Below, in pieces: positions 1,414-5,970 of a DNA stretch of 5,970 nt. The position numbers were made by a program, and so were the translations under genes. The stretch is from Conexibacter sp. (GTDB lineage Bacteria; Actinomycetota; Thermoleophilia; Solirubrobacterales; Solirubrobacteraceae): the NCBI GenBank assembly GCA_025964295.1, contig JAOPZD010000053.1:1-5970 (forward strand). Direction: 5' to 3'. Positions within the stretch are counted from its first letter, which is position 1. Every line of letters starts with the position of its first letter. The notes beneath the pieces are model-generated. The model was not told the DNA's origin, made no database searches, and saw nothing but the letters and a program-made list of their open reading frames with translations.

Positions 1414-1814
1414 CGGACCACCACCGTGCCGTGCATGAACGGGTGGATCGAGCAGATGTAGTGGAACGTGCCCGCCCTCGCGAAGGTGATCGTCCGCGTT
1501 GCGCCCTTGGCGAACAGCCCCGTGTCGAACCCGCCTGCGACGGTGGCCGAGTGCGGCACGGCGTCCTCGTTGGTCCAGGCGACCTTGGCGCCGACGCGCA
1601 CTTTGAGCACCGGCGGAGCGTACTTGTAGTTCTTGATGTCGACGCGCGTGACGCCGGCCACGGCCGGCGACGGCATCGAGGGCGCGCCGGCGGATGACGT
1701 CGTGCTCGCGCTCGAGCTGAGCACGATGACGAGCAACGACCCCACCGCGATGGCCAGCGCGGTCACGGCGGTGGGGATCGTGCAACGGCGATCGCGGAGA
1801 TAGGACATGCCCAT
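1410..1814 (-). CDS. Membrane-anchored cupredoxin (plastocyanin/amicyanin-like type 1 copper protein)
   Basis: A 134-aa protein with a basic N-terminus (YLRDRR), one hydrophobic anchor or signal segment (about residues 14-33), a Ser/Ala/Pro/Thr-rich linker (33-52) and a cupredoxin domain (about 54-134). All four type 1 copper ligands are visible: His88 in VPHSAT, then Cys121, His124 and Met127 in HYICSIHPFMHG, the C-x2-H-x2-M loop of amicyanin and plastocyanin. It should carry electrons or copper on the outer face of the membrane. There is no lipobox cysteine after the hydrophobic segment; its only Cys near the N-terminus (RRC) precedes it. ATG 1814 is preferred because GAGG lies 7 nt upstream. 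GTG 1817 and ATG 1808 are alternatives. The start overlaps the stop of the LysR remnant (TGATG), and its stop overlaps the next start (ATGA). Electron exchange with other products of the operon is plausible but not shown. Confidence 0.92.
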   Translation of the reverse strand: MGMSYLRDRRCTIPTAVTALAIAVGSLLVIVLSSSASTTSSAGAPSMPSPAVAGVTRVDIKNYKYAPPVLKVRVGAKVAWTNEDAVPHSATVAGGFDTGLFAKGATRTITFARAGTFHYICSIHPFMHGTVVVR

Positions 1815-1942
1815 CACGCAGCCTCGAGCTTGCGGATCTGCTCGCTCACGGCGGGCTGCGCTGTGTGCAGCCGCGCGGCCGCCGTGCGGAAGTGCCGGTC
1901 GTCGGCGACCGCCACGAAGGAGCGTAGTTGTCGGATCTCCAT
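1814..1942 (-). pseudogene. LysR-family regulator remnant (N-terminal helix-turn-helix only)
   Basis: The 42-codon frame reads [18 protein letters not shown], then [21 protein letters not shown], and stops after two further Ala. This is the textbook start of a LysR-type transcriptional regulator: helix 1, helix 2 and the recognition helix with AQPAVSxQIxxLE. A complete LysR protein is about 300 aa; the wing, linker helix and effector-binding domain are missing. The sequence after the TGA belongs to the cupredoxin gene, so a deletion rather than a simple frameshift is likely. Canonical LysR proteins start at this ATG, but in-frame ATG/GTG codons at 1948, 1954 and 1957 lie in a GTGATG repeat, with GAGGTGAT resembling a strong ribosome binding site. 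Without a dimerisation helix it is unlikely to bind DNA as LysR does. Family identity is strong; whether the peptide is made is unknown. Confidence 0.8.
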
Positions 1943-1957
1943 CACCATCACCATCAC
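1940..1957. repeat. Triple tandem GTGATG hexamer at the LysR remnant start
   Basis: Three perfect copies of GTGATG on the minus strand. They provide up to six in-frame potential start codons (GTG/ATG) for the LysR remnant and overlap the stop of the hydrolase remnant. Hexamer slippage keeps the frame. On the plus strand the same bases would read as six His codons, which is coincidental. Confidence 0.85.
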
Positions 1958-2103
1958 CTCGTCTCGTCGATCAGGAACGTCTCGAGATCCGCGCCGACCT
2001 GCTCAGGCGCGTCCTCGACCAGGAAGTGGAAGTCGCCCTCCACGGCGCGCACCGGGCCGGCGACCTTGCGGGCCGGCCGCGGCGCGAGCGGTGGAGGCGG
2101 CAT
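1954..2103 (-). pseudogene. Alpha/beta-hydrolase remnant, haloalkane dehalogenase-like C-terminus
   Basis: A 49-codon open frame whose second half, VEGDFHFLVEDAP followed by [11 protein letters not shown], matches the C-terminal end of haloalkane dehalogenase/epoxide hydrolase-type alpha/beta hydrolases. In LinB-like enzymes this segment reads approximately HFIQEDSPDEIG...F, and its His is the catalytic base; here that is His26. Family members are about 290-300 aa, so the nucleophile Asp, the cap domain and the rest of the fold are absent. The same frame upstream hits the TGA of the 72-aa gene after only four codons, so no N-terminal part lies adjacent. The proline-rich start MPPPPLAPRP may be junk reading at a deletion junction. 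The stop overlaps the GTGATG starts of the LysR remnant. It cannot be an enzyme alone. Confidence 0.72.
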
Positions 2104-2115
2104 CGCGTCTCGTCC

Positions 2116-2334
2116 TCAGTAGGCCGCGAGCAGCGCCTCGGCCTCGGCCAGGGAGCGCGCCAGGCTCGTGGCGTCAGCCCGCCATGGCATGCCGTCGGCT
2201 CGCGGGTCGATGCGCAGATGCAGGCGACCGTCGTGCAGCACGGTCACCCCCATCAGCTCGTTCGCGCACCAGAACTCCGCCTCGTTGTCGTAGGCCTCTT
2301 CCGGCCCGGTGACGATGACCTTGACCTCGGTCAT
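2116..2334 (-). CDS. 72-aa hypothetical protein
   Basis: I do not recognise this acidic 72-aa protein. It has two beta-strand-like stretches, VKVIVTG (residues 4-10) and GRLHLRIDP (36-44), an EFWCANELMGVTVLHD segment containing its single Cys, and a C-terminal amphipathic helix rich in Ala, Leu and Glu (about 58-71). There is no signal peptide or membrane segment. Its ATG overlaps the stop of the SDR gene in an ATGA, so it is probably translated by coupling with it. A longer open frame upstream in the same phase is only a shadow of the SDR gene. Downstream, the hydrolase remnant begins 12 nt after its stop, in the same frame. The tight pairing suggests an accessory role to the SDR protein, but there is no direct evidence. 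Confidence 0.72.
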   Translation of the reverse strand: MTEVKVIVTGPEEAYDNEAEFWCANELMGVTVLHDGRLHLRIDPRADGMPWRADATSLARSLAEAEALLAAY

Positions 2335-3092
2335 CGCTGCAGGTCCATGTGCGCGGCCCACCAGGTCTCGAAGTCGACCGCGCCGATCCGCGCGCCGTCG
2401 CCCGGCGTCAGCTCGCCGCCGTGCAGCTCGGTGCCGAAGTAGCGGGCGTGGGGGTCGCTGACGACCGTGCGCTCGTCGCCGGTGGTCTGGAACAACCGCC
2501 GCGCCCAGGCGTCGATCCCCAGCTTCTCGGGCCCGCCCAGCTCGACGTGGCCGCCGAGCGGCGCGGCGGTCGCCAGCTCGGCAACGGTCGCGGCGACGTC
2601 GTCGGCCGCCACGAGCTGCATGAGCCCCGTCGACAGCCGGACGGTCTCGTCGCCGTCGGCGCCGGAGTCGACGATCTGGGCCAGGAACTCGAAGAACTGC
2701 GTCGCGCGCAGGATCGTGAACGGCACGCCGCCGCCCTCGACCGCGGCCTCCTGGGCGACCTTCGCGCGCAGGTAGCCGCTGTCGGGCAGCCGGTCGCAGC
2801 CGACGATCGACACGGCCACGTGATGTCCGACCCCGGCCGCCTTCTCGGCGGCCACCAGGTTGCGCGTCGAGGTGACGAAGAAGTCGCGTACGGCGTCGTC
2901 CTCCCAGACCGGCGCGTTGGAGACGTCGACGACCACGTCGGCGCCGGTCATCACCTCGGCCAGCCCCTCGCCGGTGATGGTGTCGACGCCCGTCGAGGGC
3001 GACGCCGGCACCGGGTCGTGCCCCTGCGCGACGAGTCGCCGCACGACGTTGCCGCCGACCCGTCCGCTGCCTCCGATGACCACGATCTTCAT
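2331..3092 (-). CDS. NmrA-like SDR family NAD(P)-binding protein
   Basis: A 253-aa Rossmann-fold protein of the atypical, NmrA/NAD(P)H-binding short-chain dehydrogenase group. The N-terminus MKIVVIGGSGRVGGNVVRRL holds the dinucleotide-binding GGxGxxG loop (residues 7-13). ADVVVDVSNAP (51-61) is the strand 4 region. SIVG (95-98) precedes Tyr107 and Lys111, which form a Y-x3-K pair. ILRATQFFEFL (127-137) is typical of actinobacterial members of this group. It may be an NAD(P)H-dependent reductase or a redox-sensing NAD(P)-binding protein; the substrate cannot be told. The ATG at 3092 is supported by AGGAAGGA about 8 nt upstream and by a 4-nt ATGA overlap with the LtrA stop. Its own stop overlaps the 72-aa gene in the same way. 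Confidence 0.92.
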   Translation of the reverse strand: MKIVVIGGSGRVGGNVVRRLVAQGHDPVPASPSTGVDTITGEGLAEVMTGADVVVDVSNAPVWEDDAVRDFFVTSTRNLVAAEKAAGVGHHVAVSIVGCDRLPDSGYLRAKVAQEAAVEGGGVPFTILRATQFFEFLAQIVDSGADGDETVRLSTGLMQLVAADDVAATVAELATAAPLGGHVELGGPEKLGIDAWARRLFQTTGDERTVVSDPHARYFGTELHGGELTPGDGARIGAVDFETWWAAHMDLQR

Positions 3093-4324
3093 GATGTCGT
3101 TCCTTCCTGTTGGTGTTGTTGAACTCCAAGATCGCCGACGAGCGTCACGCCCGCGTCCGTCGCGGGCCCCAGTCGGGTCCCTAGCGGCGCGCGCAGGTCC
3201 CACAGCGCGAGCGCGCCGAGCAGGGCCGTGGCCAAGGCGCTCAGCGCCAGGGCGCTCAGCCCCCCGCCGGCCGGGGTCAGCGCCACGAGCAGCGCCGCGA
3301 TCAGAAGCCGCTCGGGGCTCGCGGAGCCCGTCAGGCGCAAGCGGAACAGCGTCTCGCCGACGAGGTACAGCGCGGGCCCGCCGAGGACCATCGTCACCCC
3401 GACGCCGTGAAGCGGGCGGCCCGGGTCGGCGATCAGGAGGTCGTCGCCGACGGCCACGGCGATGACGCCGGCGATGATCGGGACGTGCAGATAGGTGTAG
3501 GCGTCGCGCGCCAGGCGCCCCGGATCCGCGCAAGTGCGCATGACCTCGCGCGAGCGCTCGGCGATCACGCCGAAGTACAGCCACCACAGCGCGGCCGTCT
3601 CCAGGAACGCGACGCCCAGGCAGAGCACGACGGTCGCGTCGAGCCCGGCGGCTGCCGCGGTCGCGCCGGTGACGACGATCGACTCGCCGAGCGCGATGAT
3701 GATGAAGCCCTGGCAGCGGTCGGTGAAGTGGACGCCCTCGATGTCCCAATCGGTGGTCGCGGCCCGCCCGCGACCCGGCAGCCAGTAGCCGACGACCGGC
3801 GCGCACAGGTCGAGCACCACCGCGGGGATCCACACCAGCAATCGCTGGTCGCCGTGAAGCGCGGCCCCCGCCAGCCACAGCGCGCCGGAGGCCGCGCTCC
3901 AGACGACCAGGCGCTCGAAGACGTCGCGCAGCGGCTGATCGCGCTCGAGCAGGCTCGCGGCTGCCACGTTGCGCCCGACCTGCAGTGCGACGTAGCTGAT
4001 CGCGAACAGCACCCCGTCGCCCCCGAACGCGCCCGGCAGCGCGGCGGCCATCAGCAGGCTGGCGAGCATCACGCCGGTGAGCACCGCCCGCACCGCGGAC
4101 GAGCCCGGGTCGAACCAGTTGACCATCCACGTCGTGTAGATCCACGCCCACCACACGATCAGCAGCAGGAACGCCGCGCGGGCGACGCCGGCCACCGACA
4201 GGTCCTCCAGGATCAAGTGCGACAACTGCGTGACCGCGAAGACGTAGACCAGGTCGAAGAACAGCTCGATCGTGGTCGTGGGCTGACGGACGTCGTCGCC
4301 CCGCGGGCGCAGGTGCCGGGTCAC
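3089..4324 (-). CDS. Low temperature requirement protein A (LtrA) family membrane protein
   Basis: A 411-aa polytopic membrane protein, close to the usual LtrA length of about 370-420 aa. Diagnostic segments are TIELFFDLVYVFAVTQLSHL (residues 18-37), HFTDRCQGFIIIALGESIVV (199-218) and AYTYLHVPIIAGVIAVAVG (275-293). About ten hydrophobic helices lie between residues 25 and 376, and the C-terminal tail is polar (GVQQHQQEGTTS). LtrA was named from a Listeria mutant defective in growth at low temperature; its biochemical function is unknown. I chose the GTG start at 4324 because it overlaps the stop of the preceding gene (GTGA) and puts the ELFFDLV motif about 20 residues in, as expected. The next in-frame Met (residue 67) would delete that motif. 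Its stop overlaps the SDR start by 4 nt, and its last codons contain the SDR ribosome binding site. Confidence 0.93.
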   Translation of the reverse strand: MTRHLRPRGDDVRQPTTTIELFFDLVYVFAVTQLSHLILEDLSVAGVARAAFLLLIVWWAWIYTTWMVNWFDPGSSAVRAVLTGVMLASLLMAAALPGAFGGDGVLFAISYVALQVGRNVAAASLLERDQPLRDVFERLVVWSAASGALWLAGAALHGDQRLLVWIPAVVLDLCAPVVGYWLPGRGRAATTDWDIEGVHFTDRCQGFIIIALGESIVVTGATAAAAGLDATVVLCLGVAFLETAALWWLYFGVIAERSREVMRTCADPGRLARDAYTYLHVPIIAGVIAVAVGDDLLIADPGRPLHGVGVTMVLGGPALYLVGETLFRLRLTGSASPERLLIAALLVALTPAGGGLSALALSALATALLGALALWDLRAPLGTRLGPATDAGVTLVGDLGVQQHQQEGTTS

Positions 4325-4620
4325 CGGCGAAGCAGGCGATGCAGGAACAGGGTCGTCCCGTGCTCGCGGTGGTGGGCGAGGACGCGGCGCACCAGCCACG
4401 TCGGCCCGGCGACCGCGGCGAAGGCCGCCGCGACCACCGCGCCGATCGCGATGGTCGGCACCGCGACGATGACCGCCAGGATCAGCAGCGGCGGGCAGAG
4501 CAGCAGCCCAAGCAGGGCCGCCGCCCCGATCTCGACGATGCGCAGGCCGCCGCCGGTGACCTCGATCACCTCCTCGGTGACCTCGACGCCGCTCGGATGG
4601 ATGTGGTTCGTCGTGCTCAT
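4321..4620 (-). CDS. Small membrane protein with two helices, first gene of the operon
   Basis: A 99-aa protein with a polar, acidic N-terminal region (about residues 1-29, with VEVTEEVIEVTGG), two closely spaced hydrophobic helices (about 30-51 and 54-75) joined at a Pro-containing turn, and a strongly basic C-terminus (RRVLAHHREH...LHRLLRR). By the positive-inside rule the C-terminus probably faces the cytoplasm, with both termini inside for a hairpin. I do not recognise the family. ATG 4620 follows GGGAGG with an 8-nt spacer, a good ribosome binding site. It is the first gene after the 231-bp gap and overlaps the LtrA start by GTGA, so it is the likely operon leader. A partner role for LtrA is inferred from this overlap only. 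Confidence 0.83.
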   Translation of the reverse strand: MSTTNHIHPSGVEVTEEVIEVTGGGLRIVEIGAAALLGLLLCPPLLILAVIVAVPTIAIGAVVAAAFAAVAGPTWLVRRVLAHHREHGTTLFLHRLLRR

Positions 4621-4851: not shown

Positions 4852-5970
4852 TCAGTCCAGCTCGACCAGGGCGTTCTTCAGCTCCGACCGCGAGCTGATG
4901 CCGAGCTTCACGAACACCTTGCGCAGGTGGTACTCGGCGGTGCGTGAGCTGATGAACAGGCGGGCGCCGATGTCGCGGTTGGTGAGCCCTTCGCGCGCAA
5001 GGCGGGCGACGTTGAGCTCCTGATCGGTCATCTGGTCGATCGACTCGGGCGTGCGGGCGCGCAGCGTCTCGCCGGTCGCGGCCAGCTCGCGCGCGGCCCG
5101 CGCGGCGAAGCCCGGCAGCCCGCAGCGCGTCAGCACCTCGTGCGCCTCACGGAGCTGGGCGCGGGCGTCGACGCGCCGCTGCAGCCGTCTCAGCGTCTCG
5201 CCGTAGAGCAGCTGCGCGCGGCCCTTCAGCATCGGCACGCGCACGCGGTCGCTGCGCTCGATCGCCTCCTGGTAGAGCGCCTCGGCCTCGTCGCCGGCGC
5301 TCAGCTGCGCGCGCGCGAGGGCCAGCGTCCCGAGCGCCCAGTCGCCGCCCACCGGCAGCGTGACGCGCTCCAGGTGCGTGAGGGCCTGCTCAGCCAGCGC
5401 GGTCTCGCCGGTCCGGACCGCTGCCTCGACCAGCTCGGGCAGCGCGCGCGCCGCGAACGCCAGCTCGCGCGTGTAGGGCAGTTCGCGGCGGGCGACGGCG
5501 ACCGCGTCGGCGTAGCGCCCGGCGCCGTTGTAGGCGATCGCCTCGGCGTAGTTGGCGGCGCTCAGCGCGTGGCCCTCTCCGCGCGCCTGCGCGTCGGCCC
5601 GCAGCTGGGCGGCCCGGCGCTCGACCTCCTCCACTCGCCCGCGGTAGGCCGCGAGGTTCATGCGCCCGTATTGCGGCAGGGGATGGCCGGTGACGTTCTG
5701 GATGGCGTCGACCTCGTCGCAGGCCGCGGCGATCCGGTCCAGGCGTCCGTCGAGCACATCGGCGGTCATCTGGAAGGTCAGGGCGATCGGCAAGACCGTC
5801 AGCACGCCTCCGGCGCGTGCGAGCTCGACCTGCCGCGCGGCGAGCGCACGCAGGGCGTCCGCGTCCCACAGGTCCCGCGCGGCGTGGCAGCCGAACCACA
5901 TCCAGCGCAGCTCCAGCGTGTCCGGCGGCTGGTCGAGGAACGCGCGCAGCGCGCGGCGCAGCACGGGCTG
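4852..5970 (-). CDS. LuxR-family transcriptional regulator, C-terminal part (probably large ATP-binding LAL type)
   Basis: The visible 372 residues run open to the right edge, so the true start lies outside the window. The last 59 residues form a LuxR/FixJ-type helix-turn-helix: TDQELNVARLAREGLTNRDI, then GARLFISSRTAEYHLRKVF, then VKLGISSRSELKNAL, matching the usual L-T-x-x-E...G-x-x-N-x-x-I...T-x-x-x-H pattern, with Ala in the T-A-E-Y-H segment where Val is common. Everything before it is a long Ala/Leu/Arg-rich series of paired helices typical of the TPR-like region of actinobacterial LAL regulators (for example AEALYQEAIERSDRV and RVDARAQLREAHEVL). The family usually has an N-terminal AAA-type ATPase domain, which would lie beyond the edge. 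It sits directly upstream of the operon on the same strand and is the best candidate for its regulator, acting as a DNA-binding signal integrator; the signal is unknown. Confidence 0.9.
   Translation of the reverse strand, partial: QPVLRRALRAFLDQPPDTLELRWMWFGCHAARDLWDADALRALAARQVELARAGGVLTVLPIALTFQMTADVLDGRLDRIAAACDEVDAIQNVTGHPLPQYGRMNLAAYRGRVEEVERRAAQLRADAQARGEGHALSAANYAEAIAYNGAGRYADAVAVARRELPYTRELAFAARALPELVEAAVRTGETALAEQALTHLERVTLPVGGDWALGTLALARAQLSAGDEAEALYQEAIERSDRVRVPMLKGRAQLLYGETLRRLQRRVDARAQLREAHEVLTRCGLPGFAARAARELAATGETLRARTPESIDQMTDQELNVARLAREGLTNRDIGARLFISSRTAEYHLRKVFVKLGISSRSELKNALVELD

Follow-up and report, generated by a model that had tools for sequence, protein, structure and literature searches.

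Decaying hydrolase and LysR gene remnants in an operon of a Baekduia-like actinobacterium, a candidate chain for ribosome passage to a cupredoxin gene

The window analysed here, a stretch of 5970 nt which makes up one entire contig, raises the question of why two short reading frames, the tail of a hydrolase and the beginning of a LysR regulator, lie open in the middle of an operon. Its nearest named relatives, according to the names of protein-cluster matches, belong to Baekduia. The frames running from 4620 (start) to 614 (end) are all on the minus strand, and each adjoining pair either overlaps by 1-4 nt or is separated by a gap of 11-12 nt (Table 1). Analysis of the open reading frames bears out the 49-codon hydrolase C-terminus and the 42-codon LysR helix-turn-helix (HTH) described in an initial annotation of the locus, both on the minus strand. 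That the two frames are decaying gene remnants is well supported. They also keep a chain of short gaps and overlaps, along which ribosomes may move on from p72 towards the cupredoxin gene.

Table 1. Features of the 5970-nt window, in the order of the minus strand.
Feature	Coordinates	Strand	Remarks
luxR-type regulator	4852-5970	minus	cut off at contig end
small membrane protein	4321-4620	minus	
ltrA	3089-4324	minus	PF06772, 4e-98
sdr, NmrA-like NAD(P)-binding protein	2331-3092	minus	PF13460, 6e-10
p72, small gene of 72 aa, upstream neighbour of hyd49	2116-2334	minus	no Pfam or NCBIfam match
hyd49, 49-aa remnant (C-terminus) of an alpha/beta hydrolase of the fluoroacetate-dehalogenase type	1954-2103	minus	own ATG at 2103 behind GAGGA
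GAGGTGA ahead of lysR ATG	1954-1960, partly inside the hyd49 end	minus	common to G070
GTGATG repeats at hyd49 stop	1943-1957	minus	sequence feature
lysR remnant, HTH only	1814-1942	minus	42 codons from ATGGAG; 47 from GTG at 1957
lysR/cupredoxin junction	1812-1826	minus	GAGG within last lysR codons and TGATG stop/start overlap
cupredoxin, plastocyanin/amicyanin-like, downstream neighbour of lysR remnant	1410-1814	minus	PF00127, 1.8e-9; amicyanin model E 1.1e-16, under that model's cut-off
membrane protein after cupredoxin	976-1413	minus	same order in 5/20 cupredoxin loci of other genomes
121-aa frame	614-979	minus	
gene with weak haem-peroxidase match	1-579	minus	

The hydrolase piece, hyd49, has no Pfam match, and among NCBIfam models finds only a weak haloalkane dehalogenase match (E 0.049). 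Its relatives were recognized in a sample of 232 genomes of the order Solirubrobacterales, reached through L007, where hyd49 matches seven places in six genomes at E <= 0.01. The best of these lie inside full-length hydrolases, with 71% identity over 28 residues in G197 (E 6.7e-6) and 67% over 27 residues in G196 (E 2.3e-5). The best BLASTP score against a small set of such hydrolases was 40.0 bits; no more than 26.6 was reached in 2000 shuffles, a control that is lenient because part of the set had been found with hyd49 as the query. The full-length relatives measure about 290 aa and carry an Abhydrolase_1 domain, and the PDB entries nearest to the G196 hydrolase (L114) are fluoroacetate dehalogenases (2.2e-80). 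A LinB/DhaA-type origin, as initially proposed, was thus rejected, since haloalkane dehalogenases in PDB match hyd49 only at E values of at least 0.89. Roughly the last 30 residues of hyd49 resemble the C-terminus of full-length relatives in the fluoroacetate dehalogenase family (e.g. PDB 3r3u). In contrast, everything that precedes it there, including the alpha/beta-hydrolase core with the nucleophile and the cap domain, is missing. The motif HFLVEDAP is present in the window and aligns with the relatives; its His is the catalytic His in this family. The claim that this residue is kept holds for the window but not for P0001, the sole other copy of hyd49 found at E <= 10, a single cluster comprising 12 sequences and named in a Baekduia MAG. 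P0001 preserves the 49-aa frame with the same ends, and 5 of its 49 residues are changed; F25S and H26R fall in the motif (SRFL in place of HFL), and two further changes are P to L. Since the motif His has become Arg, even a longer P0001 would be unable to act as an enzyme.

The second piece is a LysR HTH: it matches PF00126 (HTH_1) at 5e-14 and 52.4 bits (cut-off 26.6), over profile positions 1-39 of 60. The remnant shares with LysR-type regulators (PF00126 and PF03466) this part of the HTH and the start MEIRQLR, but lacks the end of the HTH domain, the linker helix and the LysR_substrate domain, which Pfam did not detect even in the longer, 47-aa frame. Its start is likely the ATGGAG at 1942, homologous to other LysR starts. 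An intact counterpart occurs in the relative G070, where ltrA-sdr-p72 is followed, after 31 nt, by a 328-aa LysR carrying both HTH_1 and LysR_substrate. The remnant is 85% identical to it over 41 residues, and GAGGTGAT ahead of ATGGAG is identical in the two genomes. The presence of an intact lysR after ltrA-sdr-p72 in G070 indicates that lysR is truncated at its 3' end in the window; as expected of a pseudogene, the frame is far shorter than its homologues, and an intact homologue sits at the syntenic place. The last codons of the remnant, GAG GCT GCG TGA, hold a GAGG 7 nt ahead of the cupredoxin ATG, so that the junction of the two genes falls within the ribosome-binding region of the cupredoxin. 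Both pieces are thus the ends of longer genes, as initially suggested, and neither product is able to work as an enzyme or as a complete LysR regulator.

The two pieces had also been traced to an ancestral hydrolase-lysR pair, and this part of the proposal is not sustained by comparative analyses. Intact genes were expected at the syntenic locus; lysR is found there in G070, but the 31-nt gap between p72 and lysR holds no hydrolase. A hydrolase between p72 and lysR is seen in the window only, and an intact one at exactly the place of hyd49 in none of 250 loci. Most of these loci came with only about 1.5 kb of flank; matches to the hydrolase were present in 45, matches to LysR in 71 and both together in none, and the ancestral gene order is therefore not demonstrated. 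Nor does lysR generally follow p72: a LysR match is missing in the other 10 of the 11 p72 loci (3.2-kb stretches, about 1.5 kb of flank). Hydrolases of the hyd49 family do recur in this gene neighbourhood. As an example, luxR and ltrA lie on either side of a full copy in G195. In G197 the peroxidase match starts at the end of a second full copy, and luxR, sdr and p72 are found in the same 18 kb. Of the 232 genomes, 30 contain a match to the G197 protein, and luxR or ltrA is close to the hydrolase in 3 of these 30 loci. In G196 a copy (L109:1058-1617) resides immediately downstream of an sdr that has 78% identity to that of the window. It is independently broken, with a portion of its N-terminal half missing and the frame changed, and was discarded as an intact hydrolase at this place. 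In G065 (sdr 87%, p72 85%) no lysR or hydrolase match was found in 18 kb. Four further sdr orthologues, L001, L002, G081 and G062 (81% each), are accompanied by neither remnant in the stretches searched, of which L001 stops about 110 nt past sdr. L001 and L002 are short contigs from two MAGs labelled Acidimicrobiia, and may be mis-binned or carry a mobile gene. p72 belongs to an uncharacterised small gene family, with matches in 11 of the 232 genomes at E <= 0.001; sdr adjoins it in 6 of the 11 loci.

Downstream of the remnants lies the cupredoxin/membrane-protein pair, which recurs elsewhere. As a synteny marker the cupredoxin was of little use in the 232 genomes, its best three matches reaching 48-52% identity and none of 20 loci resembling the window; a viral collection contained no relative of it. 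Cupredoxin and membrane protein are adjacent in 5 of these 20 loci (L201, L202, L203, L215, L219), none of which has a LysR match. The pair thus occurs elsewhere apart from LysR, and two units have probably been joined in the lineage of the window. The immediate upstream neighbour of the cupredoxin in L215 is a distant alpha/beta hydrolase (26%).

All junctions from p72 to the cupredoxin are of the kind at which translation may be coupled, each being an overlap or a very short gap between stop and start. Twelve nt separate the p72 stop from the hyd49 ATG, and the hyd49 TGA overlaps a GTG (GTGA). Of the start/stop overlaps claimed for the remnants, the TGATG at the cupredoxin stands; at the other end the likely LysR start is not the overlapping GTG but the ATGGAG located 11 nt past the hyd49 stop. 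Reporter experiments in E. coli and Haloferax, as described in PMC10666635, showed coupling to require overlaps or very short gaps, and with 14-nt gaps gave values of 60% or below 20%, according to the gene pair. According to the same work, 15 nt of the upstream gene are enough for coupling in E. coli, hence remnants as short as these could serve. The window likewise has 1- or 4-nt overlaps and 11-12-nt gaps; in the systems there described, in contrast, the upstream frames are working genes and coupling was measured, whereas here the frames are remnants and the case is made from sequence. A literature search at the level of titles and abstract openings returned no work on remnants kept as translational bridges, and the term passages of PMC12548453 mention neither pseudogenes nor remnants.

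Opening energies were computed for the -15 to +5 region of the starts, and set against 150 control positions (median 14.6 kcal/mol, 10-90% range 8.7-20.3). The cupredoxin start, at 14.7 kcal/mol, is no more open than random positions. Only sdr (6.1) and peroxidase (4.5) are clearly more open; hyd49 and the lysR remnant have values of 10.0 and 11.5, and p72, the membrane protein and the 121-aa frame fall between 13.9 and 16.6. The computed values suggest that sdr and peroxidase start translation by themselves, and that the genes between them may lean on coupling. The leaders at the operon's two most open starts resemble each other, AGAAGGAACATCATGAA for peroxidase (577-600, minus) and GGAAGGAACGACATCATGAA for sdr (3090-3115, minus).

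Other eroded LysR genes offer a further term of comparison. A search for short LysR relatives (26-82 aa) yielded four proteins, one of which is that of the window. In the metagenomic P0003 (54 aa) and P0005 (57 aa) the LysR start is preserved, and both finish with GHAARRAEAA at a point where the G070 LysR runs on. Relative to the latter, P0003 lacks 37 and P0005 33 internal residues, which are different residues, removed in frame in either case. The recognition helix, kept in the window, is missing in P0005. None of 5000 shuffles equalled the match of the P0005 tail to G070, and 101 of 5000 did so for the shorter tail of P0003; of the latter match we are only moderately sure, but over ten residues the two tails do not differ. 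A one-gap fit of the window remnant to G070 places no gap. A direct join could have produced its ending KLEAA, or else a third deletion in frame, between two GAGGC sequences. P0004 (81 aa) has its end at another point, perhaps because its contig breaks off there. Erosion that spares both ends and the frame would fit a ribosome bridge to the cupredoxin, in a tiny sample of stubs known as proteins only. A hand-over of ribosomes from the remnants to the cupredoxin is possible, and consistent with the overlaps, the unremarkable openness of the cupredoxin start and the in-frame deletions of the stubs.

Signs of constraint on the remnants were compared with those on their neighbours. The cupredoxin P0006 differs from that of the window at 4 of 134 residues (97% identical), and comparing these changes with the 5 of 49 between hyd49 and P0001 gives a one-sided Fisher p = 0.059, which is not significant. 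The P0001 and P0006 clusters give one and the same length, 107905 nt, for their longest contig, hence the two proteins plausibly reside on one contig. Third-codon-position G+C is 0.90 in hyd49 and 0.86-0.88 in the lysR remnant, close to the 0.90-0.96 of the neighbours; either decay is recent, therefore, or constraint remains. Neither remnant has a frameshift or early stop in the window, nor does P0001 for hyd49. Neutral decay alone, with remnants not yet deleted, overlaps that descend from the intact genes and the cupredoxin ribosome-binding site, and no selection for open frames, has about an even chance of accounting for all this. The changes in P0001 are radical, the GAGG ahead of the cupredoxin ATG could permit independent initiation, and P0003 and P0005 come without a gene neighbourhood. 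Yet no frame is broken, and two different deletions, with the window perhaps three, are all in frame and converge on the same end, for which chance gives 1 in 9 (1 in 27), a weak argument.

The open hyd49 frame in a second strain cluster, which speaks against decay, may also be explained by a real small gene. Microproteins of 49 aa and 42-47 aa, the latter perhaps a mini-LysR binding DNA or dimerising with other regulators, would agree with the Shine-Dalgarno-like sequences and coding-like codon positions of both frames, with the 49-aa frame retained in P0001, and with the recognition helix retained in the window. They are an unlikely solution, given that hyd49 has a single homologue cluster at E <= 10, in which the motif is not conserved, and that the HTH of the window lacks the end of its domain; the loss of the recognition helix from P0005 lowers in particular the case for a mini-regulator. 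Since the window is itself a whole contig, a chimeric metagenome assembly fusing unrelated gene ends might be suspected. The occurrence of the same frame with the same ends in a Baekduia MAG, in a cluster whose longest contig has the same length as that of the 97%-identical cupredoxin cluster, and the recurrence of the ltrA-sdr-p72-lysR order in G070 make such an artefact highly improbable.

According to the reading we prefer, and hold to be probable overall, the two frames are decaying remnants within a long operon of co-directional genes, in a soil actinobacterium that is Baekduia-like. A hydrolase gene would have been reduced to its last 49 codons or so. lysR, once located after sdr-p72, would have lost all sequences past the HTH, and its rest would have been joined to the cupredoxin/membrane-protein unit right at the cupredoxin ribosome-binding site. 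Short gaps and stop/start overlaps being preserved, ribosomes could travel on from p72 as far as the cupredoxin gene. We infer the order of these events, the joining of the two units and a contribution of the hand-over to keeping the frames open. A bolder version has dead genes acting as ribosome bridges. The lysR interior would be lost in multiples of three, lineage by lineage, with the start and the EAA-stop end spared because cupredoxin translation requires an open frame, and the hydrolase tail would play the same part one step upstream; we regard this as doubtful.

It is common to dismiss gene remnants inside operons as noise. Those of the window are, like other operon pseudogenes, truncated copies of genes intact in relatives, but differ by their open frames, by start/stop contacts kept on both sides, and by the differently eroded LysR stubs found elsewhere. 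If bridging is untrue, the locus is a case of ordinary gene decay and operon joining. If a dead frame is indeed kept to pass ribosomes on, remnants would carry selectable information, and the locus, along with the differently eroded LysR stubs of related strains, would represent a natural deletion series.
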